From NCBI GenBank assembly GCA_024275095.1, contig JAJRZV010000005.1:1-30170 (forward strand): 30,170 nt of DNA, given 5' to 3'. Under the pieces are notes generated by a model, which searched no databases, had not been told where the DNA came from, and worked only from the letters and a program-made list of their open reading frames with translations. Made by a program: the position numbers and the translations under genes. The stretch's first letter is position 1. Each line of letters begins with the position of its first letter. The stretch is from a bacterium (GTDB lineage: Bacteria; JAJRZV01). Positions 863-22,514 of this stretch are shown piece after piece.

Positions 863-2110
863 ATGAACAGGGGAATGACGAGATTTTTGTTTTCGCTGTT
901 CCTGCTTACAGCCGGATGCGGAAAAGGGAACGGGACAACTTTTACCCTGCGCCTGGAGCCTTTTGCCGGTGGGTTACTCCTTCCCGACATGTCTGTGGAA
1001 CTGGTGGTGAGAGAAAGTGGCGGTGATGAAATGTATCGGGAAACCGTCACTCCACCAGCGCGCAGGATCGAGTTTGCCGTGAACCTTGACAGATGCGTTT
1101 CTATCGAAGCGTACGTTCACAGGAACACGCAGGTGGTGCTTTCCGGTGAAAGCCCGTGTATGCATCGTGAAAGCATAGAGAATGGAAAAATCTACCTGGC
1201 CCCGCCGTTTCAGCCGGTCTGGCGCGATGACATTATCCTCGGAAGAGCCTGCAGTGACGGGAATTTCGTTTATTTTCTTTCGCCCACAGGCGGAGAGCTT
1301 TTGCGAGCCCCGCTCGTTGCACTGGACGAACAGGTCGTGCAGGCTGTTCTGCCTGCCGCGGAGGGTGACGCTGTGGCGTGTACTGAAAATAGCGTTTACG
1401 TTGCCGGGGGTATTGACTCCTCAGGGAATTTCGTTCGAACGGCCTGCTCTTACGGAAAGGCAGGACTCCACTGTTTCCCCGTGGAAACGGCCACCAGCGA
1501 CATGGCTGCTGCTTCTTTGGGAGAGATCGCTGCATTCTGCGGTGGAAACACGGCTGTTGGAAAATACACGGGATGCATGCTCGTTCACGCAGGCGCAGTC
1601 TCGTATTCTGGAGATGTTATCTATGTAACCGCTCGTCCAGTCATTGCAGGAGCAGACGGACTTTTTTATCTCTTTTCAGGTACCAGCAAGGTGTACGCGC
1701 TCTCTTATTCCTTGACACAGCGCATTGACACAGAGATCCCCGAAACCAAGACGCTATCCGCGGTAGCGTTCGATAAAGGATTTTACCTGTACCGGTGCAG
1801 CGATTCTTCCGCAGAGGTTGGTATAGTGCGGATGGAAGACTGGTCTTATACCGTGAGCGGGACAACAGCAACGCTTCTCTCGTCGCCACAGGGTGTCGGG
1901 TGTGGAACAGGAGCGGTGTTTGTCGGGCCTGAAGGGCTTGTTTTCTTTGACGGTTATCAAGTGAGGGAGTTTACTTTTCAACCTTCACTGAAGGTATATT
2001 CAGCCGTTGCACTTTCCAGGCACGCAGTTCTCGTTGCCACTGACAGGGGCACCCTTCTTTTCAACTGCCTGGCAGGCACGAGCGGGAGCAGGGCGGGAGG
2101 AGAGAAATGA
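863..2110 (+). CDS. Lipoprotein with propeller-like repeats
   Basis: The ATG at 863 gives 415 residues with a textbook lipoprotein signal: N-terminal basic residues, hydrophobic stretch and lipobox LTAG|C with Cys19. The longer frame from 743 would bury this signal, so 863 (or ATG 875) is preferred; a GGAAAGG at 845-851 could be the ribosome site. After a beta-sandwich-like first 120 residues, the rest consists of short beta-rich units such as 'GNFVYFLSPTGGELLRAP', 'NSVYVAGGIDSSGNFVRT' and 'DGLFYLFSGTSKVYALSY', the pattern of a kelch/SMP-like beta-propeller. Several cysteines fit disulfide bonding. The last four bases overlap the next gene (ATGA). Likely anchored in the outer membrane or periplasm; ligand unknown. 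Confidence 0.8.
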   Translation: MNRGMTRFLFSLFLLTAGCGKGNGTTFTLRLEPFAGGLLLPDMSVELVVRESGGDEMYRETVTPPARRIEFAVNLDRCVSIEAYVHRNTQVVLSGESPCMHRESIENGKIYLAPPFQPVWRDDIILGRACSDGNFVYFLSPTGGELLRAPLVALDEQVVQAVLPAAEGDAVACTENSVYVAGGIDSSGNFVRTACSYGKAGLHCFPVETATSDMAAASLGEIAAFCGGNTAVGKYTGCMLVHAGAVSYSGDVIYVTARPVIAGADGLFYLFSGTSKVYALSYSLTQRIDTEIPETKTLSAVAFDKGFYLYRCSDSSAEVGIVRMEDWSYTVSGTTATLLSSPQGVGCGTGAVFVGPEGLVFFDGYQVREFTFQPSLKVYSAVALSRHAVLVATDRGTLLFNCLAGTSGSRAGGEK

Positions 2111-3903
2111 AAAGACCACTGTGTTTTCTTGCGATATTTGCGTTGAGTTGGGGGTGCACCGGAGGTGGAGGAGGCATTAACGTTGCTCCTACAGCTGTTG
2201 TGCCGTCATCCATCGAGGCTGAAGTGGGTCGGGTTGTGTACCTGGACGCTTCTTCTTCGTACGATCCGGAAGGTGACCCGCTGAAATTCTACTGGAACCT
2301 GGAAAGCATTCCCCCCGACTCGGTAGACGTGGTCCTTGCAGATCGATATGCGCCTGTTGCGGTGCTGATTCCCGACGTGCCGGGGATTTATTCCGTCTCG
2401 CTGACTGTCTCGGATGGATTCTCTACAGGACTCCCTGCCGGTGTTACTGTAAATGTTTCACCGGGAGTGCTCAAACCCACTCCAGTAATAGAAAAAAGTG
2501 GAGATCCCCTTGTCGGCGAGCGGGTGGAATTAAGGGCGGATTTGAGCGTTAACCCCTTGCAGGAGGAGATGAACTTCAGGTGGGAACTTGTGGATGCTCC
2601 GGAGGGTTCTTCTGCATATTTAAGCGTTATCACGGGACCGTACACGTCTTTCGTGGCCGATGTTCCTCACGGGAGGTACAGGGCAAGGCTTACGCTCCGC
2701 AACCGCAAGGGTGGACCGGCAAGTAATACGGCCACGCTTCTTGTGAAGAACAGCCCGCCCCGTGTGGAACTCATGGCCGTCAGGGTGCCTGAACGCTTGA
2801 AAAGTTTACCGGTGGCATCACAGGAACAGGTTGAGTTTGATGTTAGCACGGCAGACCCGGATGGAGATTCCGTGGAAACGTTCGTATTTACTTACACCTA
2901 CAGGAGTTACGCGGGAGAACCCACTGGTGCAGGGTTTCATTGTCCGGGTTACAGCGGCTACCACAATACGTGTATTACCACCACCCCGGAAGAGGTGCTG
3001 TTTTTTACAGGAGAGAACAGCCTTTTTGAAGGGTCGTTTGTCGTTTCCCTTACAGGGATGGATGAATTTGGTGGAACTGCCGTTGATTCCGTGGTGCTCG
3101 AGAGGGCTTCCGTTGCTCCACCGTCCGTAAAGACAGAAGACTCTTCTACGGGACACCTGTTTTTACGGGGGGAATATACGGCTGAAACGAGAGTAAAAGC
3201 ATATTTCACCAATTCCAATACCGATTCTCAGAGACTCGATTATTCCGTTCAGCTTCAGGCACGTCCGAGGTCAGACTGCCACGTGTCCATTACACCACCT
3301 TCGGGAGCTCTCGATATGGGAGCCGGCGATGCGGCAGCATTGGATATTGCAATTCACGCCAGCGGATCTCACAGGCGATGTGTGGGTACATATCGATTTG
3401 TGGTTGAGGGCTGTTTCGGTGACAAGTGTATGGAGCGTTCGTTTGCCCTGCATGTTCTTAACAAGGCCCCTGCCGGTGCTGGACTGTTTGGTCTTCCCGC
3501 GACAGTTGAAGTGGAGTGTGAGACGGATGCAGACGGAAAGGAGTATTCGCTGGATTCTGTGAATTTTCAACTCATTGTATCTGGAAGGGACACGGACGGC
3601 GATCCTGTGATTCTGACGTTCAGCGCGGACAGGCCTGAGGAGAATGCAAACGGTATCGTGTTTTCCCCGGGGGTACTGCGCTGTGCAAGCGGGGAAGCCT
3701 GCCCGGTTTTGGCCACGCTCAAGGGCTCGCAGGTATGCGTGTCCCGGGAATTGTCGTGGTGCCTTTTCGTCCCGTGCTGGATTTGTGTGAAGAAAGAAAT
3801 TCACGCTGTTCGACCCGGTAAAACATTTTTTTCCGTACAGGTCTCCGACGGGATGGCCGCCGGTCCTTCCACGGGTTCGTTTGTAGAAGTGAAATGCAGG
3901 TAA
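2107..3903 (+). CDS. PKD-domain lipoprotein with Cys-rich C-terminus
   Basis: 598 residues starting at an ATGA overlap with the previous gene. The signal sequence ends in lipobox LSWG|C (Cys17) followed by a glycine run, a typical flexible tether. Residues about 26-113 form a classic PKD domain ('LDASSSYDPEGDPLKFYWNL'). Two further Ig/PKD-like units follow at about 120-215 and 218-330, the last with a 'DPDGDSVETFVF' motif. The C-terminal 200 residues are rich in cysteines (for example GCFGDKC, LRCASGEACP, CLFVPCWIC), indicating disulfides. No enzyme motif is seen. PKD domains usually mediate protein-protein or protein-carbohydrate contacts at the cell surface; that role here is inferred. Confidence 0.85.
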   Translation: MKRPLCFLAIFALSWGCTGGGGGINVAPTAVVPSSIEAEVGRVVYLDASSSYDPEGDPLKFYWNLESIPPDSVDVVLADRYAPVAVLIPDVPGIYSVSLTVSDGFSTGLPAGVTVNVSPGVLKPTPVIEKSGDPLVGERVELRADLSVNPLQEEMNFRWELVDAPEGSSAYLSVITGPYTSFVADVPHGRYRARLTLRNRKGGPASNTATLLVKNSPPRVELMAVRVPERLKSLPVASQEQVEFDVSTADPDGDSVETFVFTYTYRSYAGEPTGAGFHCPGYSGYHNTCITTTPEEVLFFTGENSLFEGSFVVSLTGMDEFGGTAVDSVVLERASVAPPSVKTEDSSTGHLFLRGEYTAETRVKAYFTNSNTDSQRLDYSVQLQARPRSDCHVSITPPSGALDMGAGDAAALDIAIHASGSHRRCVGTYRFVVEGCFGDKCMERSFALHVLNKAPAGAGLFGLPATVEVECETDADGKEYSLDSVNFQLIVSGRDTDGDPVILTFSADRPEENANGIVFSPGVLRCASGEACPVLATLKGSQVCVSRELSWCLFVPCWICVKKEIHAVRPGKTFFSVQVSDGMAAGPSTGSFVEVKCR

Positions 3904-4328
3904 CAGTGAAATATACGTCCATCGTTTTTACATTTTGCGTGCTTGTACTCGCGGGTTGTACTGTTACGCAGCAACTGACACTGGCGAAAGGCGACCGTCA
4001 TATCCATTGCAGGCTCACACCTTCCCCGGTGCGCATGCGGGATTTTGTATGCAATGCATCTGTCCTGGCAACCTACGGACTGCTGGAAGCCTCTGTGGAG
4101 GTGCTCGTGAGGGGAATGCAGCAGTACGGTGAACAGCCGGTGTTGCTGAAGATGCTGGGCAGGATCCTTTTGATGGCAGGTATGCCGGCGGAGGCGAAGA
4201 TGTACCTGTCCCGAGCAGAGAAGAGAGCACCCGGTGATGCCGAAATAAAAAATCTTTTAAGAGAAACAGATTCTGCGAGGAAACAAGATGTGGAACTGGA
4301 ACATAAAACTGTGCCGGAGAAAAGATAA
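3894..4328 (+). CDS. Small TPR-like lipoprotein
   Basis: 144 residues starting 10 bases before the stop of the PKD lipoprotein gene, so translation is probably coupled. The signal peptide ends in VLAG|C with Cys22. Residues about 50-125 are alpha-helical with TPR-like spacing: 'ASVEVLVRGMQQYGEQPVLL' then 'GRILLMAGMPAEAKMYLSRA' then a helix starting 'PGDAEIKNLL'. Two or three such helical hairpins are too few for a full TPR superhelix, so it may be an adaptor binding the other lipoproteins or the periplasmic domains of the FHA and kinase proteins. The 3' end overlaps the next gene by 41 bases. Confidence 0.75.
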   Translation: MQVTVKYTSIVFTFCVLVLAGCTVTQQLTLAKGDRHIHCRLTPSPVRMRDFVCNASVLATYGLLEASVEVLVRGMQQYGEQPVLLKMLGRILLMAGMPAEAKMYLSRAEKRAPGDAEIKNLLRETDSARKQDVELEHKTVPEKR

Positions 4329-4902
4329 CGGCAAAAGTTGTTACTTCGTGGTCCTGGGTGGTCGTGAAGCCAGCGATAATTTCCGTGCTACGGATAAGCT
4401 GACCGTCGTGGAGAAAGTTTTTCTCCTGAAGGTTGTTTCCGCATACCTTGCCCTTGCCATGAGCGTAGCGATTCTATTTGCCGTGCCCGGGAGAAAGCCA
4501 GGGGGGCTGCAAGAAGGTCCCGTTGATAACAATGCACCAGGCACTGGTGCCATGCACGAACCATCTGCTGCCTTGATGACCCTTAAAGAGATAGAACGCG
4601 TCATTATCAACAGGAATGCCCTTTCCGTTGAACTCGGCAGGGCATTGAAAACCGTTTCTTCACTGCTGGAACAATGCGAAAGATGTGAAAAAAGGGAAAA
4701 CCTTTTGGAACTCCGCGGTGCTCTTGAACTCCGTGTAAAGGAGAGGTTCAGAACATTGAGGTTTGAGGCTGAAAAAGCGATCAGGTTCGGCAATACCATG
4801 CGCGCTCGCCGGACACTCGAAGAAATAATGAGTCTCGTTGTTCACCACGACGATGAGCCTTACAGATACGCGGTGCGCAGGCTGAAGGAGTTGAGGCGTT
4901 GA
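4288..4902 (+). CDS. Single-pass membrane protein with helical periplasmic domain
   Basis: 204 residues of unrecognised family. The ATG at 4288 follows a GAGGAAA purine stretch and overlaps the TPR-like lipoprotein gene by 41 bases; an internal start cannot be excluded. One transmembrane helix at about residues 46-66 ('VSAYLALAMSVAILFAVPG') follows a basic N-terminal segment, predicting N-in/C-out topology. The C-terminal domain (about 90-204) is charged and helical, with a 'CERC' pair, and could be a coiled coil or TPR-like bundle. The stop codon overlaps the start of the FHA gene as TTGA. It probably works as a membrane partner of the FHA and kinase proteins; this is inference from context. 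Confidence 0.7.
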   Translation: MWNWNIKLCRRKDNGKSCYFVVLGGREASDNFRATDKLTVVEKVFLLKVVSAYLALAMSVAILFAVPGRKPGGLQEGPVDNNAPGTGAMHEPSAALMTLKEIERVIINRNALSVELGRALKTVSSLLEQCERCEKRENLLELRGALELRVKERFRTLRFEAEKAIRFGNTMRARRTLEEIMSLVVHHDDEPYRYAVRRLKELRR

Positions 4903-6116
4903 TTCGCCTTGTTCATGAAAGAAAGGGTTGCAGGCGGGAGTTCCTGCTCCAGGAAGGAGTGTACGTTGTGGGAAGGGCCCCTTTCTGTGACATCGTAATA
5001 GATGACCCGTATCTCTCGCGTCGTGATTTCTCGATTCACGTGAAAGAAGGGGAAATCGTGGTGATGGACGAGCACTCGAGAAACGGGCTCACTGTGAACG
5101 GAAAAATTGTAAACAAGGCCGGGTTGAAGGAAGGGGATGTTATTGAGGCCGGTGATTCAAAATTCACGGTTCTCTTTGCGGACGGGACCGAGGAAACGCT
5201 GGTAAAAGCCGCTTCCGGTTCCCCTGGCTCTTCGGGTGAGACAGTGGTGCTGAAGTCCCCGTCGAATGCCACGGACTGCAAAGGCGCGCCGTTGAAGGTT
5301 GTGGAAGTTACGGCGTTTGTCAGGTGCTGGAAGCTGGTGGCCGGAACCGCTGTGTTCCTGCTGGGCGTTGCTATCGTGAATGTGAATGGTTCACCCGGGC
5401 TTCGTTCCGGCCGCGCCGGGCCCGAGGGGTTACGCGCGGGAAAAACCCCGGTTCCTGCAGACAGGGAACTTAAAAAAGGACCTGTTCAGGAAGAGCCCGT
5501 CCATGTCCATTCGAAAAAGCCCATGGTATTGCCGAAGGCCTTCTTGCCCAGGAAGAGGAAAGAAGGCGGGAGTCCCGGGAGGCCAGCCTCTTCGAAGGCG
5601 GGTGCGGGGCCTGCGAAGGCGTTGAACGGGAAGAAGGGAACAGGTTCCGATACGCCGGTTGTGTTTCGTTCGAGAAGAGAGTCAGATTTTGCCCGTTTTA
5701 ATTTTCAAAACCTGATGCGTAGGGGGGCAATGTTCGTTGCTGAAGGTCGGTTGAGAGAAGCTGAAGGTGTTTTCCAGAAGGCATGTGATATTGCCCGGAA
5801 ATTCCTCAACGATGTGGATGTGAAAAAGTGCCGGCAGAATTACAGAAGCGTGGTTCTGGTACGGGCGAAAGCGATGCTCTCGTCCGGTGATTACGCAGGC
5901 GCTTATTCTCTCACTTACAGGCACGCGGGCGAAGCGTTCGAGTCCTTGAGAAAGAAAGCAGTAGAGGGCATAGATAAACTATTGAGGGCTGCTTATGCAG
6001 ATGCGGATGTCGACGCGGAGGGTGCAACATCGCGTATTCGTAGAATCCTGGAAGCTGTCCCCAGGGGCTCGCCGGTATCCCGGAGGATTCAGAGAATCCT
6101 GCAGAGGTTGCAATGA
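4899..6116 (+). CDS. FHA domain protein with one TM helix and periplasmic helical repeats
   Basis: 405 residues from a TTG start inside a TTGA overlap, with AAGGAG at 4884-4889 as ribosome site. FHA domain at about 22-90: 'YVVGRAPFCDIVIDDPYLS' then 'DEHSRNGLTVNG', the phosphothreonine-binding fold. The usual SxxH motif reads SRRD here, so the conserved His is replaced by Asp43, while Arg25, Ser40 and the NG turn are kept. One transmembrane helix at about 143-164 is followed by a Lys/Pro/Gly-rich linker (165-260) and a helical TPR-like domain (262-405). Predicted topology is FHA in the cytoplasm, repeats in the periplasm. It ends in an ATGA overlap with the kinase gene, its likely phospho-partner. 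Confidence 0.85.
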   Translation: MIRLVHERKGCRREFLLQEGVYVVGRAPFCDIVIDDPYLSRRDFSIHVKEGEIVVMDEHSRNGLTVNGKIVNKAGLKEGDVIEAGDSKFTVLFADGTEETLVKAASGSPGSSGETVVLKSPSNATDCKGAPLKVVEVTAFVRCWKLVAGTAVFLLGVAIVNVNGSPGLRSGRAGPEGLRAGKTPVPADRELKKGPVQEEPVHVHSKKPMVLPKAFLPRKRKEGGSPGRPASSKAGAGPAKALNGKKGTGSDTPVVFRSRRESDFARFNFQNLMRRGAMFVAEGRLREAEGVFQKACDIARKFLNDVDVKKCRQNYRSVVLVRAKAMLSSGDYAGAYSLTYRHAGEAFESLRKKAVEGIDKLLRAAYADADVDAEGATSRIRRILEAVPRGSPVSRRIQRILQRLQ

Positions 6117-7663
6117 TTATTGACAGGCCGGTACGTTTTGCGAATTTCGTGGTGCTCTCGCGCCTTGGTTCGGGTGGCATGGGTGAGGTCTACAGGGCAG
6201 TAAAGATCGGGACGGGTGGGTTTGAAAAGGATGTGGCTCTGAAAATTATTAACCCCGATATATCCAGTGATAGCGAATTCAGGCGCCTGTTTTTGCGCGA
6301 GGCTCGCATTGCTGCGAAAATTCAGCATCCCAGCGTGGTACAGGTGTACGAGCTGGGTATGGCCCGCGGAACATTGTACATGTCCATGGAACTGGTAAAA
6401 GGTGTGACCCTTCGAAAGCTGATCAATGTGTTGCGAGAAAGGGATGAGAAACTCGGTGACGAAGAAGCGGCGTTTGTGCTGTACAGTGTAGCCACGGCAC
6501 TTTCTGCAGTGCACAACTTGCGCGATGGTGTAAGTGGGGTACAGAAGGTCATCCACCGTGACGTGTCGCCTCAGAACATTTTTGTTTCATACGTCGGCGG
6601 GGTGAAATTGGGAGACTTCGGTGTTGCCAAGGTGGTGGGCTATACGGACGTCACCCGGCCCGGCGAGGTGAAGGGCAAGCTGGGGTACATGGCCCCAGAG
6701 CAGTTACACGGGGAAGACGTGGATGAACGCACCGACATTTTTTCCCTGGGCGTGGTGATGGTTGAGGTTCTTACAGGCCGAAAGCCTTTCCCGATGGCAG
6801 AAATCACGTCGGGAGGTTCTGTGGTACGCGAATTTGATGCCGGATGCCTGGAGGTAAGACCCGCCTTTACCAGCATACTCGCAAGAATGCTCTGCGAGGA
6901 AAAGGCAGAACGCTATTCCAGTGCGAGTGTACTTGCTGAAACTGTCGCTGCCGGATTTGACGTGCTGAAAGGACAGGAGAACCTTTTACGGAGAATGGAC
7001 CGCCTCTTCGCCAGTGAAAGAGAGAACACGGAAAAGCACGTACAGTCACTCATGTGTTCCAGGGAATTTGCCAGGTGTCGCAGGGAAATTTTGAAGGCAG
7101 AGGGAGGAGAACGCACCATTGTTCAGGGAGGACACAAAAAGAATTTTTTCGCGTATGGCGGTGCCGTGCTGGGAGCGTTTGCTGTTGCTGCGTTGCTGGT
7201 GGGGTACGTTTTGATACTCAAGAATGATTTTACAGCACGCGTGATCCAGGAGCCTGCTCGCCCATCGAAGTCTCTGAAAGTACTTCAAAAAGAGAGAGGT
7301 GCTCGTGGCAGTGCCAGGACGAGTGGACACCTGAAAGAATCTGAATTATCGGCCAGGAGAAGAGGCACCCGTTCAAATTCAAAACCCGGGAAATACGTGC
7401 CCTTAAAGAAACCCGCTGTTGCTTACATAAGCGTTCGTTCAGAGCCGGATGGTTACGTGTTTGTGGACGGGAAGAACACGGGGGTAAAGACTCCGGTGCA
7501 GCGCCTTACCTTAAAGCCGGGAGATCACACGATTGCAGTGGTGAATCCCGAACGCGGGATTATAGGCATGGAGCGGGTTACCCTTAAGAAGGGTGGCTTG
7601 AAGATCTTCAGGTTTTATCTTCGAAAAGAGAAGCAAAAAATCCAGGAGGGTGACAATGAATAG
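6113..7663 (+). CDS. Transmembrane Ser/Thr protein kinase with PEGA domain
   Basis: 516 residues, eukaryote-like (Hanks) kinase. All key elements are visible: glycine loop GSGGMGEV (19-26), catalytic Lys44 in VALK, helix C Glu63, HRDVSPQN with Asp150 and Asn155, DFG at 168-170, and APE at 194-196. It should be active, phosphorylating Ser/Thr of partners, most simply the FHA-binding partner or itself. A transmembrane segment lies at about 344-364. The periplasmic C-terminus (about 435-505) is a PEGA domain ('AYISVRSEPDGYVFVDGKN', 'TPVQRLTLKPGDHTI'), found in surface-linked bacterial proteins. Starts by ATGA overlap with the FHA gene; a downstream secreted-protein gene overlaps its last 8 bases. 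Confidence 0.93.
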   Translation: MIIDRPVRFANFVVLSRLGSGGMGEVYRAVKIGTGGFEKDVALKIINPDISSDSEFRRLFLREARIAAKIQHPSVVQVYELGMARGTLYMSMELVKGVTLRKLINVLRERDEKLGDEEAAFVLYSVATALSAVHNLRDGVSGVQKVIHRDVSPQNIFVSYVGGVKLGDFGVAKVVGYTDVTRPGEVKGKLGYMAPEQLHGEDVDERTDIFSLGVVMVEVLTGRKPFPMAEITSGGSVVREFDAGCLEVRPAFTSILARMLCEEKAERYSSASVLAETVAAGFDVLKGQENLLRRMDRLFASERENTEKHVQSLMCSREFARCRREILKAEGGERTIVQGGHKKNFFAYGGAVLGAFAVAALLVGYVLILKNDFTARVIQEPARPSKSLKVLQKERGARGSARTSGHLKESELSARRRGTRSNSKPGKYVPLKKPAVAYISVRSEPDGYVFVDGKNTGVKTPVQRLTLKPGDHTIAVVNPERGIIGMERVTLKKGGLKIFRFYLRKEKQKIQEGDNE

Positions 7664-12766: not shown

Positions 12767-13720
12767 ATGCGCCCAGAAACAGCACCTGTATCTCAACATG
12801 AAAAGGCGCTTGAAATATATTCCTCTGTCAAGCGCGTGATCGTGGGCAAAGATGAAGAGGTGTTTCTGTTTCTTTCTGCCTTTTTTGGAAGAGGGCATGT
12901 CCTGATTGAGGACCTTCCGGGCACGGGTAAGACTACATTAGCACGGGCTCTCGCTCGGGCACTTGAGCTTTCTTTTGCAAGGATTCAATTTACGAGCGAT
13001 CTACTACCTTCAGATATTATCGGTGTAAACGTGTTTGACTCAAGGAAAGGAGAATTTGAGTTTCGCAAAGGGCCTATATTTGCCAATATTGTTCTGGCGG
13101 ATGAAATTAACCGTGCCACTCCGAAGACACAAAGCGCACTGCTTGAAGCGATGAGTGAAGAACAGGTTACCGTTGACGGGGTTACGTATCATCTCAGCAC
13201 TCCGTTTTTTGTCATTGCAACACAAAATCCTTTCGAACAGCACGGAACATATCCGTTGCCGGAGTCGCAACTCGATCGCTTCATGCTCTGGTTGAATCTG
13301 GGTTATCCATCACGAGAGGATGAAATAAAAATTATAGAGAATGATCCGGCTGAGAGAGTAGAATTTCTCGTTCAACCGGTGGCGGATGCAGATACTGTGA
13401 AACGCATAATCCAGGCCGTTGAGCGCGTGAGTGTCTCAGAAAAAATTCTCGGATACATTATGGATATTGTAGAGAAGACAAGAACGCATCCTGAAATTCT
13501 TATCGGAGCCAGTACGCGTGCAGGAATCCACCTCAGGAGGGCTTCTGCTGCATTTGCCTTTCTTAAAGGTCGTGATTTTGTAACACCAGATGACGTAAAG
13601 GCAGTGGCACCTTATGTGTTGAAACACCGCTTGGTGTGGAAGCGATGGGATGTGGACCGGTTTGACTCCAGAGCCGCGGCGATCCGGAGCATTATTGATT
13701 CAGTTTGTGTTCCTCTTTGA
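12767..13720 (+). CDS. MoxR-family AAA+ ATPase
   Basis: 317 residues, typical MoxR length. Walker A 'PGTGKTT' at 51-57, Walker B 'IVLADE' at 108-113, followed by 'INRATPKTQSALLEAM' and sensor 'IATQNPFEQHGTYPLPESQL', all diagnostic of the MoxR/RavA group. These ATPases act as chaperones that help assemble or activate partner proteins, usually encoded next to DUF58 and von Willebrand A proteins. Here the following genes are DUF58 and a TgpA-like transglutaminase, with TTGA coupling to DUF58. The ATG lacks a ribosome site and fits a leaderless start. Confidence 0.95.
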   Translation: MRPETAPVSQHEKALEIYSSVKRVIVGKDEEVFLFLSAFFGRGHVLIEDLPGTGKTTLARALARALELSFARIQFTSDLLPSDIIGVNVFDSRKGEFEFRKGPIFANIVLADEINRATPKTQSALLEAMSEEQVTVDGVTYHLSTPFFVIATQNPFEQHGTYPLPESQLDRFMLWLNLGYPSREDEIKIIENDPAERVEFLVQPVADADTVKRIIQAVERVSVSEKILGYIMDIVEKTRTHPEILIGASTRAGIHLRRASAAFAFLKGRDFVTPDDVKAVAPYVLKHRLVWKRWDVDRFDSRAAAIRSIIDSVCVPL

Positions 13721-14754
13721 AGGGGCTTGAAATCAGAGGGGACTTTGATAATAACCTGAAATCCCGCTTGAGGGAGTTCTGGGAGTGGCTTGTTACACCA
13801 CCGCGACCTATCCGTATAGCCCGAAGTGGCTGGATTTATCTCTCCATTACCATCGGCGTGGGTTTTGGTGCTCTTGCATCAGGGAACAATCTGCTATTCA
13901 TCATTTTCGGGGGATTGTTGAGCATGATCGTGGTTTCAGGAGTTTTAAGCGATTTTGTATTGCGCAGTATTCATATAAAGTGGGAGTTACCCGAGGTTGT
14001 TGTTGCAGGCAAGGCTTCACATTTCAGTGCGGGAGTGACCAACAGGAAGTGGTATTTTCCCTCTATTGATTTGCACGTTGAAGTGCAGGGGGAGCGTGTC
14101 AGGTGTGAACCGGCATATTTCCCGGTAGTGGAAAAAAGACGAACCCGCTGGTCTCAGGGAGAGCTCATAATACCTTCGAGAGGTATTGTAGAAATTAAGC
14201 GAGTAAGAGCTTTCAGTCGTTTCCCCTTTCACTTCTTCGAGAAAATGCTCTACGTGAAAACCAGCGCTATGGTTTACGTGGCTCCACGGCCGGTACCGTG
14301 GGAATGGAAGACAGTATTTACAGGAGCCGAAGGGGTACATGAAAGACCTGTAAAGAAAGACGAAGGTGATGATTTGCTCAACATTCGACCTTTTGTTCCA
14401 GGGGATAACCCGCGGCTCATTCACTGGAAGCTCACGGCCCGGGTAGGCGAAGAAATGATGAAGGTGATGGGAGAGCCACCGGGAGCCACCTGTTATATCC
14501 GGCCTTTTGTTGAGGTGCCTGAAGGCCTTCAGCTTGAGCAGGTGTTGGGTAAAACACTTTACATGGCCAGGAAATTAATTGATGAGGATTGGAAGGTTGG
14601 TTTGATTCTTGGCGGAGAGGTGCTTCATCCCGCTTCTGGAAAGGGCCAGTTGTTTCAGATAATGAAAATGCTCGCTGCCTTTCGCCCTGGAGAGAGGTTT
14701 CAGCCCCCGGTGATAGGTGACGGCACTGTCTCCGTGGTAGAGGTGCGCCCGTGA
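13717..14754 (+). CDS. DUF58 membrane protein
   Basis: 345 residues from TTG 13717, which overlaps the moxR stop as TTGA; an in-frame TTG at 13705 is also possible, and neither has a good ribosome site. Two transmembrane helices near the N-terminus (within 'WIYLSITIGVGFGALASG' and 'NNLLFIIFGGLLSMIVVSGV') precede a soluble domain. The DUF58 signature is clear: 'DDLLNIRPFVPGDNPRLIHW' followed by 'KLTARVGEEMM'. DUF58 proteins are partners of MoxR ATPases, with a fold related to vWA, and are associated with envelope stress or proteolysis; exact role unknown. Its stop overlaps the next start as GTGA. Confidence 0.9.
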   Translation: MKGLEIRGDFDNNLKSRLREFWEWLVTPPRPIRIARSGWIYLSITIGVGFGALASGNNLLFIIFGGLLSMIVVSGVLSDFVLRSIHIKWELPEVVVAGKASHFSAGVTNRKWYFPSIDLHVEVQGERVRCEPAYFPVVEKRRTRWSQGELIIPSRGIVEIKRVRAFSRFPFHFFEKMLYVKTSAMVYVAPRPVPWEWKTVFTGAEGVHERPVKKDEGDDLLNIRPFVPGDNPRLIHWKLTARVGEEMMKVMGEPPGATCYIRPFVEVPEGLQLEQVLGKTLYMARKLIDEDWKVGLILGGEVLHPASGKGQLFQIMKMLAAFRPGERFQPPVIGDGTVSVVEVRP

Positions 14755-16781
14755 GGTCTACCCCCAAACTGATCGTTCACGTTCTCCTCGCAGTTGGTAC
14801 CTTCAGTTTATATATGACGGGTGAGATCCCGCTGCCGATCATCGCCGTTACTGTATGTGCCTACGCTGTGAAGGTTTTTGTTAGAAGCAACGTGATGGAA
14901 GAATTTGTGGAGCGCAACCTCGGGTACCTCACCTTTCTGTTCGTTGCTGTTTTTGCAGCCGCAGTGCTGTTCAAAATAGTGAGCATTTTACACGCAGCTG
15001 CCGAGTTTATTCTCATAACCAGTGCGTTTCGCATCCTCGGCCCTCAACAAAAACGCCAGTTGAACCAGATTGTTCTTTTGTCACTTTTTGAAATTCTCGC
15101 CGCCTCAACGCTTACCGGTGATATTTACTTTGGATTCGTTGTGATTGCTTACCTCTTTATCGTGCCCTGGGCTCTTATTCTCGCTAACCTCGAGGGAGAG
15201 CCAGCATCACAGGAGATACAAGATCGCCTGAACCGTCCTGACTTCGTATTTTTCCTGTCAGGTTTTTCCACAATGGCAGCAGTGATGACGGCCATGTTCT
15301 TTTTTATTTTTCCGCGCTTCACGCTTTCCCTGGTAAAGCCTGTAATGCTGGAGGAGCACTTCGTGGCGGGTTTTTCAGATGAGGTAAAACTCGGTGACAC
15401 CGGAAAAATCCTGCAGAACATGCCTGTGGTGATGCGATTTGTGCCTCATTCTTCAGATGGATGGAAAGACAAGGTTTTCTATCTGAGGGGAAGGGTATAC
15501 ACCGTATATCAACAGGGCTTATGGAAAAGAAGCAATTACAAAGTAAGGTCGGTCAGGCGCGTCAACGCCAGAGACGTGTACCTGGAAAAGAGCCCGTTCG
15601 CTGGTCATGAAAGCGCTGCAGATATCTACTTCGAGGTGCTTTTTACAGACAACCTCTTTGTTCCTTACGGAACAGTGTATTTGTCCCGTCTCAAAAAAGC
15701 CCTCAGCACCAACGACGTGTGGGAGTTGTTTCCCCGGGCTGGCATGGGCGTTCCGCCGGTTTATACTGTGGAAGGATCACTGCTTCAGCAAAATTACATC
15801 CTTCCACCGGTATATGACGAGCCCCCCGAATATAATCTTTTTATTTCTTCCCAGTTGAAAGAGGAATTAAAAGAAGTTGTTACACGTTCCTGGGGGGTGG
15901 ATTTTTCCTCAATTGGACCTGACGATGTCGCCAGATATTTGAAAAAGCATTATTCATACACTTTAAAAATAGAACGCAGGGACCTGCAGGAAGACCCTGT
16001 AATAGACTTTCTCGTGCACGTGAGAAAAGGACACTGCGAGCTATTTGCCTCGGCCATGGTCCTTATTTTGCGTACCCTTGGTATTCCTGCGCGATTCATC
16101 ACAGGATTCCTTGTGCATGAATGGAATGACATCGGAGATTATTTTGTTGTTCGCGAGAGAAATGCACACACGTGGGTGGAGTATTTTGACGGTCAATACT
16201 GGAGAGCCATTGATCCGACACCCACTGCAGAATTGATCTCAGTGAAAAGTGCGGGTACCCTGTGGGAATTTTTTGATACTTTGAAGCTCTGGTGGATGGA
16301 ATATGTGCTTGAGTATTCTTTAAAAAAGCAGATGGAGTTTGTCCAGCGCGCGGGTGTGAAAATTACCCGTGGGGGAGAAGGACGAATTGCACGCATTTAC
16401 GAATGGGTAAGGGCTCATAACCGGCTGGTTGTGGTGATACTGGTATTTGCGGGCATAGCCTTTTTCTTCTGGAGAAAAACAGGCAGTGCTTTTCCACGGA
16501 TAAGGCGGCGTTCTCCATTGGGAAAAGTTGCAGGAGAATACGTAAAAATTCTCCGCGAAATTGCACGAGCATCGGGAATTCAATACAGTCCGGGTGAGAC
16601 ACCGCTGGAATATTTGAGAAAGGTAAGGCATTTGCTTGACGCGGATTTCGAGGCTGAACTCTATTCAGCGACTCAAAAGTTTTACTTGATGGTTTACAGG
16701 GGTATAAACTGGCCTGAAGCACTGAGTGTGTTTGGTCGGCTTAGAAAGAGAGTTCGAGAGTCCGTAAGGAGGCCTTGTTGA
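14751..16781 (+). CDS. TgpA-like membrane transglutaminase (DUF3488/DUF4129 type)
   Basis: 676 residues from a GTG start in a GTGA overlap. The N-terminus has a bundle of transmembrane helices, the periplasmic middle holds a transglutaminase core, and a further helix near 'LVVVILVFAGIAFFFW' leads to a cytoplasmic C-terminal DUF4129-like tail. The triad is intact: Cys429 in 'GHCELFAS', His473 in 'NAHTWVEYF' and Asp488 in 'RAIDPTPTAEL'. Members such as Pseudomonas TgpA are periplasmic and associated with moxR/DUF58 operons, as here. The substrate is not evident; it could be a cross-linking or protease-like enzyme for envelope proteins. Last gene of its operon. Confidence 0.93.
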   Translation: MRSTPKLIVHVLLAVGTFSLYMTGEIPLPIIAVTVCAYAVKVFVRSNVMEEFVERNLGYLTFLFVAVFAAAVLFKIVSILHAAAEFILITSAFRILGPQQKRQLNQIVLLSLFEILAASTLTGDIYFGFVVIAYLFIVPWALILANLEGEPASQEIQDRLNRPDFVFFLSGFSTMAAVMTAMFFFIFPRFTLSLVKPVMLEEHFVAGFSDEVKLGDTGKILQNMPVVMRFVPHSSDGWKDKVFYLRGRVYTVYQQGLWKRSNYKVRSVRRVNARDVYLEKSPFAGHESAADIYFEVLFTDNLFVPYGTVYLSRLKKALSTNDVWELFPRAGMGVPPVYTVEGSLLQQNYILPPVYDEPPEYNLFISSQLKEELKEVVTRSWGVDFSSIGPDDVARYLKKHYSYTLKIERRDLQEDPVIDFLVHVRKGHCELFASAMVLILRTLGIPARFITGFLVHEWNDIGDYFVVRERNAHTWVEYFDGQYWRAIDPTPTAELISVKSAGTLWEFFDTLKLWWMEYVLEYSLKKQMEFVQRAGVKITRGGEGRIARIYEWVRAHNRLVVVILVFAGIAFFFWRKTGSAFPRIRRRSPLGKVAGEYVKILREIARASGIQYSPGETPLEYLRKVRHLLDADFEAELYSATQKFYLMVYRGINWPEALSVFGRLRKRVRESVRRPC

Positions 16782-19376: not shown

Positions 19377-22300
19377 TTAAAATAAATTGAGCTGCTGATT
19401 TTCTTTTTTTATCAAACGTTTTCGTGGCGAGTCTTTGCTCAGGGATACGAGAGATGAAGGAAGATTTCGAATAAGAGATGAAATTCGCATTTCTCTTGAT
19501 TTTCCTTGCCATTTACGTTTTTTTGCATGGCACAGGAAAACTCTTTCCTTTGCACGTGTGATGCCCACATACAGGAGCCGCTTCTCTTCTTCCAGGTTGA
19601 TTGCTTTTCCTCCCCAGATAAGAGGTAAAATCCCTTCTTCACAACCAATGATGAATACCACGCGCCATTCCAGACCTTTGGCACTGTGAAGTGTAAGAAG
19701 TGATACCCGGTCAGCACGGGTATCAAGGGTATCGTCTTCTGTCATGAGATACAGGGTGGTGAGAAATGTCTGAAGGTCCCCTCCGGATGCGATAAGTGCA
19801 GGTTTGAGAATTTCGAAGATGCTCTCTGCAGTGAGGTGGGAGTGGTTGCTCTTAGCGACTTCTTCCACCGCACTGCGCACGATATCTTCGAGAGACGCGG
19901 AAGGATTGGAATTTTTAACCGCATCTACAACGTGGTGAATTTCGGGGCGGGCCATCAGAGGTTCGTTTGAGCGTTTTTGAAAGGGTATGCCTGCCCGACG
20001 CATGGCTTCTTCTACTTCTTGTGCAATTGCTTCGGTACGGTACAAAACAGCAAAATCCGCGAAGGAAAATTCTCCACCAGCGAGACCATCGGAAAGCTGG
20101 CTGTCTATTGCATGAAATGAGCTACCTCCTACAAGACGTTCTATGGTTTTTACAACAAAGAATGCTTCAGAAGAAGCAGAAGGGGCTGCGTGTATTACCA
20201 CTTTCGGCTCTATTGATTCTTCTTTTTCGTGTGTGATTGTTTCAGCTGGGTTGAGGACGTGTTTTGCAGTATTTGTAATAAATGAACTGGAGCGATAATT
20301 GCGTTCCAATCTGAAAATTTTTGCCGACGGAAAATCCTGCTGAAAGCGAAAGAAAAATGACGTGTCTGCACCCCTGAAAGAATATATGGCCTGGTCCGGG
20401 TCTCCAATCACACAGATGTTGTCTCCAGGTGGTACCATATATTTAATGAGTTGATACTGTAAAAAGTCTATATCCTGGTACTCGTCCACACTAACGTATG
20501 CAAATCGGGACTGCCACAACTTGCGAAGTTCAGGAAATTTCTCAAGAAGATCAACGGGTAAACGGATAAGATCATCGGTGTCAACCGCGTTTATGGAAGA
20601 TAGGAGTTTTGAATAGGTCTCGAAAATTGTTTTTGTATCACTGTCTGGAGGCTCCTGCCGGGTTCGCTTGGCAAATGATATTTTTTTCAGTACCTGCAAG
20701 GCTTTTCTTTCCGATATGTTGAGATGTTTGGAAAGGAGTCCCACTTTTTCCCATTCGCTGAGGATTTTGAAGTCGGGTTGCAGGTCCGCTTCCCTCGCGT
20801 GTTCGCGCAAAATCGAGAGTCCCAGTGAATGAAACGTGTGGACTGCGACATCCTTACCGCGCTCTCCCAGTAACTGTGCAAGTCGCTCTCTCATTTCCTC
20901 TGCAGCCCGACGCGTAAAAGTAACAGCCAGGCATGCCTGTGGTTTCACATTCAGTCTGAGGATAATATGAGCAATTCGATGAGTAAGCGTGCGTGTTTTC
21001 CCTGAACCCGGGCCAGCGATGATAAGCACAGGTCCCTGTGTGCACTCGGCTGCTTCTCGCTGGGTTGTGTCCAGCGGATCCAAAGGATCTCCGGTTTCGG
21101 GTGCTGAATCCATTTCCCGAAGCGTGTGTGACTTTGCCGGAGGAATCAGCAGTGGCAGGGCAAGGGCAGGCTCTTCCTGCTGTCCGCCGGCTTCTTCTGC
21201 TCTGCGGGAGGACTCAGGGAAAGAGAACAAAAGCCCCCCTGACCTGAGTTTTTTTAACTCTTCATCCGAGAAGAGCCTTATTAGCCCATACTCACCATCG
21301 TATCCACCTTCGCGAATAACCTTTCCTTTTCTCAAACGTGAAATGGCTTCAGCAACTGTCGGGGATGACGCCCGTGCAATTTCCTGTAGGGGTGCTTTTT
21401 CGAGAATGTAGAGTTCCGGTCCCACTTCACGAACCAGGCGGGAGTAAACCCTCTGGACCGTACGCGTTCGTGGACCTGTTCCGTAAATTTCCGAGAGTAT
21501 CTCAGCGAGAGGAACAAGGCTGTGAACTTCACCTGCTGTTTTCGGAGGTAGCGGTTCCGCCCTGTCCGCCAATTCCTCAACACGGTACATGACTCCGAGG
21601 GTGAGAGGCTTCCCGCATTTTGGACAAATTCCTCCAAGGCGTCGTGACTCTCGTGGCTCTAAACGCATGCCGCACTTCCGGTGGCCGTCAAGGTGGTACT
21701 TGCCCTCCTCAGGGAAGAATTCGACAGTGCCGACGTATCCTTTACCCTCTTTGAGGGCTTCACGAATAGAAGAATAATTTGCAGGACAGTTGAATATACA
21801 TGCTTCGCGTCCGAGCCGGTCCAGCGAATGTGCGTCCGAACTTGAGACCAGACGGAATTTATCAAGTGAAGAGACACGCCAGTTCATGTAAGGATCGGAG
21901 GAAAGCCCTGTTTCTACCGCCAGGATGTAAGATGCAAGGTCTTCATAACACTCCTCAATGGAATCGAATCCGGAACGTGATCCCAGCACAGCAAACCACG
22001 GCGTCCAGATGTGTGCAGGAATGAGCATTGCCTGTTCGCTGCATTCCAGAAGTATCTCCAGCAAATGCCGTGAATCAAGTCCGAGTATGGGACGGCCATC
22101 GGATGCAATATTACCGATACGTGAAAGTTTTTCAGTGAAACGCTCCGCTGCAGTCATATCAGGGACACATATCAGGTGATGCACTTTGCGCGTACGTTTT
22201 CCTTTTTTGTAAATGGTTGATATTTCAACCGTGAGCATGAAAAGTACTTCTACCGGTGGAAGTCTTTTGCCTTCGAATTCATCTTCAGGTACGGGTGGAA

Positions 22301-22514
22301 CTTTCAGTTTAAAAAGTCCTTCTTCTGCTTCACGGAGTTTTTCCCTGATTTCCTTCCACCATTCTGGATGGGTAAAATCACCGGTACCTATCACTTTTAA
22401 GCCTTTAATCGCACCCCACAGAGCCAGATTTTCGAGTGTAATGGCCCTGCTGGTACCGCGAGAGAACCGCGAGTGTATATGGAGGTCTGCATAAAACATG
22501 GTGATAATCGCCAT
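19377..22514 (-). CDS. Endonuclease Q (TIGR00375/PHP) fused to UvrD/Rep-type helicase
   Basis: 1045 residues. Residues 1-420 match endonuclease Q: PHP entry 'ADLHIHSRFSRGTS', 'HIWTPWFAVLGSRSGFDS', 'VETGLSSDPYMNWRVSSLD', 'SSSDAHSLDRLGREA', and a zinc finger with Cys281, Cys297 and Cys300 plus a nearby His, ending 'LTLGVMYRVEELADR'. EndoQ cuts DNA 5' of deaminated bases. Residues about 485-1045 are a full superfamily 1 helicase: Walker A 'GPGSGKT' (501-507), 'VTFTRRAAEEM', DEYQD box, 'DQAIYSFRGADTSF', 'TLHSAKGLEWRVVFI' and 'LLYVGITRAKERV'. Start ATG 22514 follows GGAG with good spacing. Both active sites look intact. Inferred role: one-protein incision and unwinding of damaged DNA. Confidence 0.93.
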   Translation of the reverse strand: MAIITMFYADLHIHSRFSRGTSRAITLENLALWGAIKGLKVIGTGDFTHPEWWKEIREKLREAEEGLFKLKVPPVPEDEFEGKRLPPVEVLFMLTVEISTIYKKGKRTRKVHHLICVPDMTAAERFTEKLSRIGNIASDGRPILGLDSRHLLEILLECSEQAMLIPAHIWTPWFAVLGSRSGFDSIEECYEDLASYILAVETGLSSDPYMNWRVSSLDKFRLVSSSDAHSLDRLGREACIFNCPANYSSIREALKEGKGYVGTVEFFPEEGKYHLDGHRKCGMRLEPRESRRLGGICPKCGKPLTLGVMYRVEELADRAEPLPPKTAGEVHSLVPLAEILSEIYGTGPRTRTVQRVYSRLVREVGPELYILEKAPLQEIARASSPTVAEAISRLRKGKVIREGGYDGEYGLIRLFSDEELKKLRSGGLLFSFPESSRRAEEAGGQQEEPALALPLLIPPAKSHTLREMDSAPETGDPLDPLDTTQREAAECTQGPVLIIAGPGSGKTRTLTHRIAHIILRLNVKPQACLAVTFTRRAAEEMRERLAQLLGERGKDVAVHTFHSLGLSILREHAREADLQPDFKILSEWEKVGLLSKHLNISERKALQVLKKISFAKRTRQEPPDSDTKTIFETYSKLLSSINAVDTDDLIRLPVDLLEKFPELRKLWQSRFAYVSVDEYQDIDFLQYQLIKYMVPPGDNICVIGDPDQAIYSFRGADTSFFFRFQQDFPSAKIFRLERNYRSSSFITNTAKHVLNPAETITHEKEESIEPKVVIHAAPSASSEAFFVVKTIERLVGGSSFHAIDSQLSDGLAGGEFSFADFAVLYRTEAIAQEVEEAMRRAGIPFQKRSNEPLMARPEIHHVVDAVKNSNPSASLEDIVRSAVEEVAKSNHSHLTAESIFEILKPALIASGGDLQTFLTTLYLMTEDDTLDTRADRVSLLTLHSAKGLEWRVVFIIGCEEGILPLIWGGKAINLEEEKRLLYVGITRAKERVFLCHAKKRKWQGKSREMRISSLIRNLPSSLVSLSKDSPRKRLIKKENQQLNLF

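Follow-up and report, generated by a model that had tools for sequence, protein, structure and literature searches.

A widespread bacterial fusion of endonuclease Q with a UvrD-type helicase carries a putative sliding clamp-binding tail

Endonuclease Q (EndoQ) has been characterised from P. furiosus (PF1551), T. kodakarensis (TK0887) and B. pumilus. Incision by EndoQ leaves a 3'-OH and a 5'-phosphate, and for the step that follows the nick alternatives have been proposed without proof, either strand displacement together with Fen1 or a 5'-3' exonuclease (PMC4357722). In the P. furiosus enzyme (PfuEndoQ) the zinc ligands E76, H84 and H139 are each essential, and H139, G169 and S171 shape the base pocket and exclude T and A (PMC8307549). 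Mutation of D192 in the M. acetivorans enzyme, which corresponds to D193 in PfuEndoQ, results in an inactive enzyme (PMC6202378). Archaeal EndoQ binds PCNA via a C-terminal PIP box that is required for stimulation, and clamp motifs in bacterial EndoQ homologues have already been noted (PMC4858679); the consensus of the bacterial beta-clamp motif is QL[S/D]LF, or more generally QxxLF (PMC12309361). Among the SF1A helicases, UvrD translocates in the 3' to 5' direction (PMC8636605), and the 2B subdomain is autoinhibitory, its deletion activating Rep monomers (PMC13238157).

Here we analyze a gene in which these two enzymes are combined. The window, i.e. the whole stretch of DNA that was analyzed, is 30,170 nucleotides long, and the gene is located on its minus strand. 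A preliminary description of this DNA had claimed that EndoQ is joined to a UvrD-type helicase in a single protein, with no frameshifts and with both active sites intact, and all of this held: the gene is a single open frame from ATG to stop with neither internal stops nor frameshifts (plus-strand reading of 19377-22514 meets stops throughout), both domains were matched by sequence as well as by predicted fold, and all catalytic and base-pocket residues examined are present. The features are as follows, all on the minus strand.

22514 to 19377, minus: EndoQ-UvrD fusion gene, 1045 aa, with the ATG at 22514 and the stop codon at 19377-19379
21255-22490, minus: EndoQ domain, residues 9-420, comprising the PHP nuclease, zinc-binding and C-terminal domains (phmmer and structure)
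21993-22013, minus: HIWTPWF block, residues 168-174, where H168 aligns with H139 of PfuEndoQ (zinc ligand and base pocket)
21615-21683, minus: zinc-binding site H278-x2-C281...C297-x2-C300, invariant in 39/39 fusions (alignment A1)
21078-21254, minus: disordered linker, residues 421-479 (pLDDT below 50 at 427-473, and linker comparison)
19443-21077, minus: UvrD/PcrA-type SF1A helicase, residues 480-1024 (Pfam, NCBIfam and PDB matches, and structure)
20994-21017, minus: helicase motif I (Walker A), AGPGSGKT, residues 500-507, with K506 and T507 invariant in 39/39
20472-20486, minus: helicase motif II (Walker B), DEYQD, residues 677-681, with D677 and E678 invariant in 39/39
19710-19913, minus: shortened 2B region of a few helices, approximately residues 868-935 (length compared with PcrA)
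19380-19394, minus: C-terminal QLNLF, putative beta-sliding-clamp-binding motif, residues 1041-1045 (consensus match and family conservation)

The first 420 residues show clear similarity to EndoQ, as residues 9-418 match the PfuEndoQ chain 5zb8_A with an E value of 1e-51 (phmmer), and the predicted fold superimposes on 5zb8 over the whole domain length with Z 46.6 and an rmsd of 2.0 over 380 residues (VIA-align). In the profile search that the preliminary description had proposed, TIGR00375 matched with E 9.2e-53 and 179.9 bits, which does not reach the curated cut-off of 326.6. Since this cut-off was passed by none of 386 sampled bacterial genomes, even those with a stand-alone EndoQ, TIGR00375, a hypothetical equivalog model, marks a narrow subgroup. 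The claimed PHP metal motifs were found complete, with matches to H8, H10, D42, E76, H84, H139, D193 and H195 of PfuEndoQ, and the claimed HIWTPWF block is located as listed above. E76, H84, H139, G169, S171 and D193 of PfuEndoQ correspond to E97, H112, H168, G203, S205 and D227 of the fusion, all six of which are invariant in 39 aligned fusions, and the ten positions made up by the eight metal ligands and G169/S171 are intact in 67 of 69 fusion EndoQ domains, in all three split forms (see below) and in 48/48 stand-alone sequences. The claimed zinc finger is present as a four-ligand site, but its first ligand is a histidine and not a cysteine (HxxC...CxxC, or HCCC compared with CCCC in PfuEndoQ); histidine replaces C249 of PfuEndoQ in 69/69 fusions and also in 43 of the 48 stand-alone sequences. 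Thus, the fusion is like characterised EndoQ in fold, metal ligands, zinc-binding domain and base pocket, and differs from it by the added helicase and by the histidine in place of the first zinc cysteine. Judged by the sequence, its predicted activity is 5' incision at dU, dI, dX and AP sites, and the EndoQ identity together with the intact residues supports repair of deaminated bases as the likely function, as was suggested before.

The helicase part matches PF00580 (E 7.3e-70), PF13361 (E 6.2e-39) and PcrA 1pjr (E 1.9e-81), and its predicted fold superimposes on D. radiodurans UvrD 4c2t with Z 37.6 and an rmsd of 3.1 over 519 residues. It was claimed that every SF1A helicase motif is kept, and with respect to the core this is correct: motifs I (residues 500-507), Ia (532-534), II (677-681), III (704-715), IV (740-742), V (941-949) and VI (983-988) are all present, and their key residues are invariant or nearly so across 39 fusions. 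What was overlooked is that the 2B subdomain has only about half the length of that in PcrA, with 89 residues between positions 848 and 936 compared with approximately 178 by our reading of the alignment. Across the family the 2B length ranges from 77 to 166 residues, apart from one outlier of 18, and it is nearly full length (161-166 residues) in some members (L014, L016, L019, L020 and L029). The fusion therefore shares with UvrD, PcrA and Rep the core motifs, the 1A/1B/2A architecture and presumably the 3' to 5' motor, but differs from them in 2B and in scoring far below the equivalog cut-offs (393 of 911 bits for PcrA, 361 of 951 for Rep and 290 of 1144 for UvrD). RecB and AddA also combine a nuclease and an SF1A motor in one chain. 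The matches to RecB and AddA were confined to the motor. The nuclease of RecB and AddA is of the PD-(D/E)XK type and placed at the C-terminus, while that of the fusion is PHP-type, lesion-specific and N-terminal.

An AlphaFold2 model built from 39 fusions (mean pLDDT 85) shows two domains joined by a disordered linker at residues 427-473; with a pTM of 0.62 it does not fix the relative placement of the domains. The reading of the fusion as a two-part protein was incomplete, as it missed the QLNLF motif at the C-terminus, which lies in a low-confidence tail of the model (residues 1030-1045). A loose clamp motif closes 40 of 43 fusions in a first set, where two of the three misses are sequences that end at contig ends and the third ends in QRNLF, and the motif or close variants of it are found at the C-terminus of most members of a second set of about 30 fusions. 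Only one of 780 other ORFs of at least 200 aa from the same loci ends in such a motif. A clamp tail is known in kind from EndoQ, where it is likewise C-terminal, but in the fusion it sits behind the helicase, and a bacterial clamp motif takes the place of the PIP box. QxxLF-like strings also occur in 27 of 70 linkers, many of them shortly after the EndoQ domain, at the place of the C-terminus in a stand-alone EndoQ (QLGLF in L011, QTALF in L026, QSLLF in L020), and the linker of the protein analyzed here reads GGLLF where several relatives retain this second QxxLF. The stand-alone bacterial EndoQ proteins of L058, L059 and L060 end in QLSLF, QISLF and QMSLF, respectively. A DnaN gene is present in the source genome, and QLNLF is predicted to dock the fusion on the DnaN clamp.

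A scan of genome contigs gave 48 loci, mostly with full-length fusions, from Acidobacteriota, Verrucomicrobia, Actinobacteria, Chloroflexi, Gastranaerophilales, Desulfovibrio, Desulfoluna, Sorangium, Clostridia and others. For a domain-wide estimate we used the sample of 386 bacterial genomes, with an EndoQ homologue defined as a TIGR00375 match at E <= 0.001. The fusion, counted as open frames of about 950 aa or longer, occurs in approximately 31 of these genomes (about 1 in 12), and the long-frame members that were fetched and scanned contain both domains with the nuclease first. The remaining EndoQ homologues in the sample are mostly single domains of approximately 400-450 aa. EndoQ homologues were found altogether in 99 of the 386 genomes. 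The preliminary description took EndoQ to be best known as a stand-alone enzyme of Thermococcales and some Bacillus. Its rarity is overstated in the literature, as about a quarter of the sampled bacterial genomes have it, far above the "few bacteria" of the published accounts.

In three cases the EndoQ and UvrD-like genes are separate but adjacent or overlapping, namely in L039 (Patescibacteria), L040 (Woesebacteria) and L127. As a side observation, both products of the split pairs in L039 and L040 end in clamp-like motifs, while the motif in L127 lies a few residues from each end. A phylogenetic survey of the fusion had been called for, and it shows that the fused nucleases and the fused helicases each form essentially one clade. 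In the EndoQ tree, rooted on PfuEndoQ, a single region holds the fusions and the split forms together with a few helicase-less members, at least two of which (L032 and L132) lack the helicase only because the contig ends. With the exceptions of a long-branch paralogue and a broken sequence, the fused helicases group as essentially a single lineage (support 0.89) in the helicase tree, and most of the sampled PcrA/UvrD genes lie outside it. A single pairing followed by fusion, with occasional fission or loss, would be the simplest history, and the split adjacent genes together with the near-single clades in both trees indicate a stable functional pair. In the full-text literature searched, including that on COG1379, a description of an EndoQ-helicase fusion was not found; subscription journals or a homologue figure from 2015 could mention one. 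The fusion is conserved and widespread and is not described in the literature searched, while its components and its clamp tail are of known kinds.

Having computed the fusion, the intact residues, the folds, the clamp motif, the short 2B, the conservation, the near-single lineage and the presence of DnaN, we infer the enzymatic activities, the choice of strand, the order of steps and the clamp binding. We consider it probable (roughly 0.6) that the fusion is a clamp-tethered repair enzyme that nicks 5' of a deaminated base and then displaces the damaged strand in the form of a 5' flap. The EndoQ domain would locate uracil, hypoxanthine, xanthine or an abasic site and nick just 5' of it, leaving a 3'-OH. 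As UvrD moves 3' to 5' and the nick lies 5' of the lesion, stripping of the damaged strand requires a motor that travels on the intact one, while a motor on the nicked strand would open the DNA upstream. The UvrD-like motor, relieved of much of the autoinhibitory 2B, would thus load on the intact strand at the nick, move 3' to 5' and peel the lesion-bearing strand off as a 5' flap. The enzyme would be tethered to the DnaN clamp by its QLNLF tail, so that a polymerase on the same clamp could extend the 3'-OH, and a flap nuclease and a ligase would complete the repair. Apart from the added helicase, such a flap route would correspond to one of two proposals made for EndoQ in 2015 (PMC4357722). 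The pathway was previously called self-contained, which does not fit, as other proteins must provide the repair synthesis, flap removal and ligation, and conservation of the clamp motif points to a link with the replication machinery. The parallel drawn to UvrABC-UvrD is also loose, as UvrABC makes two incisions and EndoQ one, and a 3' to 5' motor on the intact strand resembles 5'-directed mismatch repair more than nucleotide excision repair.

Two other readings keep a repair function but change the order of steps or the substrate. The helicase could act before the nuclease: the motor would translocate along DNA that is single-stranded or has just been opened, close to the fork or at stalled sites, and pass it to EndoQ, making the fusion a surveillance device. 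This would agree with EndoQ cutting uracil and hypoxanthine in single-stranded as well as double-stranded DNA (PMC11354406; PMC6202378) and with deamination being faster in single strands (PMC6202378). The clamp tag would likewise place the fusion near replication, but a cut in single-stranded DNA at the fork would break the fork. SF1A monomers furthermore usually require a 3' tail to start, and we regard this order of events as unlikely. Less likely again is that the nuclease has drifted to another substrate, be it another lesion, abasic sites only, or branches and flaps, with the fusion serving general or recombination repair. The fused EndoQ has only about 36% identity to PfuEndoQ over the aligned residues and scores below the TIGR00375 cut-off, so its specificity could have drifted, and one pair of relatives (L118 and L119, see below) has actually lost nuclease residues; on the other hand, 67 of 69 fusions retain the counterparts of G169, S171 and H139, the residues by which PfuEndoQ excludes T and A (PMC8307549).

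The least probable of the alternatives, and one that we hold to be quite improbable, is an anti-phage enzyme that, in the manner of nuclease-helicase defence systems, would cut phage genomes carrying uracil or other modified bases and then degrade or unwind them. Bacillus EndoQ is not inhibited by Ugi and has been proposed to act against viruses (PMC8307549), and the helicase part of the fusion matches the PADLOC models for GajB and the DRT helicase. These matches cover only the generic UvrD part, however, and with no defence genes nearby the defence-system reading was rejected. The fusion has a UvrD-like motor in common with GajB of Gabija but carries its own EndoQ nuclease. The annotated neighbours include no gene for a partner nuclease, and a Pfam scan of 20 neighbouring ORFs gave no match to the GajA partner (OLD/TOPRIM nuclease). 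The fusion gene is solitary and flanked by genes on the opposite strand, with a HEAT-repeat protein gene and an unannotated ORF on one flank and genes for homoserine dehydrogenase, a threonine synthase-like protein, phosphoglycerate mutase and PRA isomerase on the other, and the neighbours in the window are overall amino-acid and central-metabolism genes along with membrane and regulatory genes. A conserved operon was rejected as well, as the commonest neighbour family occurs in at most 7 of 74 loci and there is no constant partner. Searches with the fusion gave no phage match, no plasmid match with 80% cover and a single edge fragment on viral contigs, which led us to reject a mobile element. 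The lack of conserved neighbours, of a phage copy and of a full-length plasmid copy argues against a mobile or defence role. Rfam gave no match anywhere in the window.

The fusion is not the only deamination pathway of the source genome, since homologues of UDG and EndoV are encoded there, and with a further UvrD-type helicase also present (the PcrA-like C73, 496 bits) the fusion is not obviously needed; C73 also led us to reject the fusion as the sole UvrD of the cell. The UDG family PF03167 is found in 369 of the 386 sampled genomes, the source genome included, and a general replacement of UDG by the fusion was therefore rejected. EndoQ is weakly enriched where UDG is lacking (8 of 17 genomes compared with 91 of 369, p 0.04, a value not corrected for phylogeny). 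Beyond the source genome, the fusion may represent a widespread, dedicated and glycosylase-free pathway for excising deaminated bases, with incision 5' of the lesion and stripping of the damaged strand by a built-in, 2B-reduced helicase both carried out by a single clamp-bound protein, a broader proposal to which we give slightly less than even odds. If true, there would be a glycosylase-free excision repair beside UDG-type base excision repair, unnoticed since EndoQ was thought to be rare in bacteria. The natural fusion would name a 3' to 5' motor as the likely partner of EndoQ after the nick, and the clamp tail would name the platform, which makes the pathway testable with one purified protein.

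The long relatives mentioned above are encoded by L118 (2584-6603, minus strand, 1340 aa) and L119 (73-4296, minus strand, 1408 aa). Their EndoQ domain lacks catalytic and pocket residues (H84R, S171M, D193N and H195Y), and their linker contains three or four QxxLF/QxxLL motifs; by sequence they are possibly clamp-binding helicases with a dead nuclease domain. In L047, on a contig labelled Nanoarchaeota, a UvrD-like gene (1599-3104, plus strand) and an EndoQ-like gene (3160-3933, minus strand) lie convergently side by side, and the contig is possibly mis-binned. Elsewhere in the window, genes for a MoxR ATPase, a DUF58 protein and a TgpA-like transglutaminase lie in a row at 12767-16781, which is a common bacterial cluster, and at 4899-7663 an FHA-domain protein adjoins a PEGA domain-containing Ser/Thr protein kinase.
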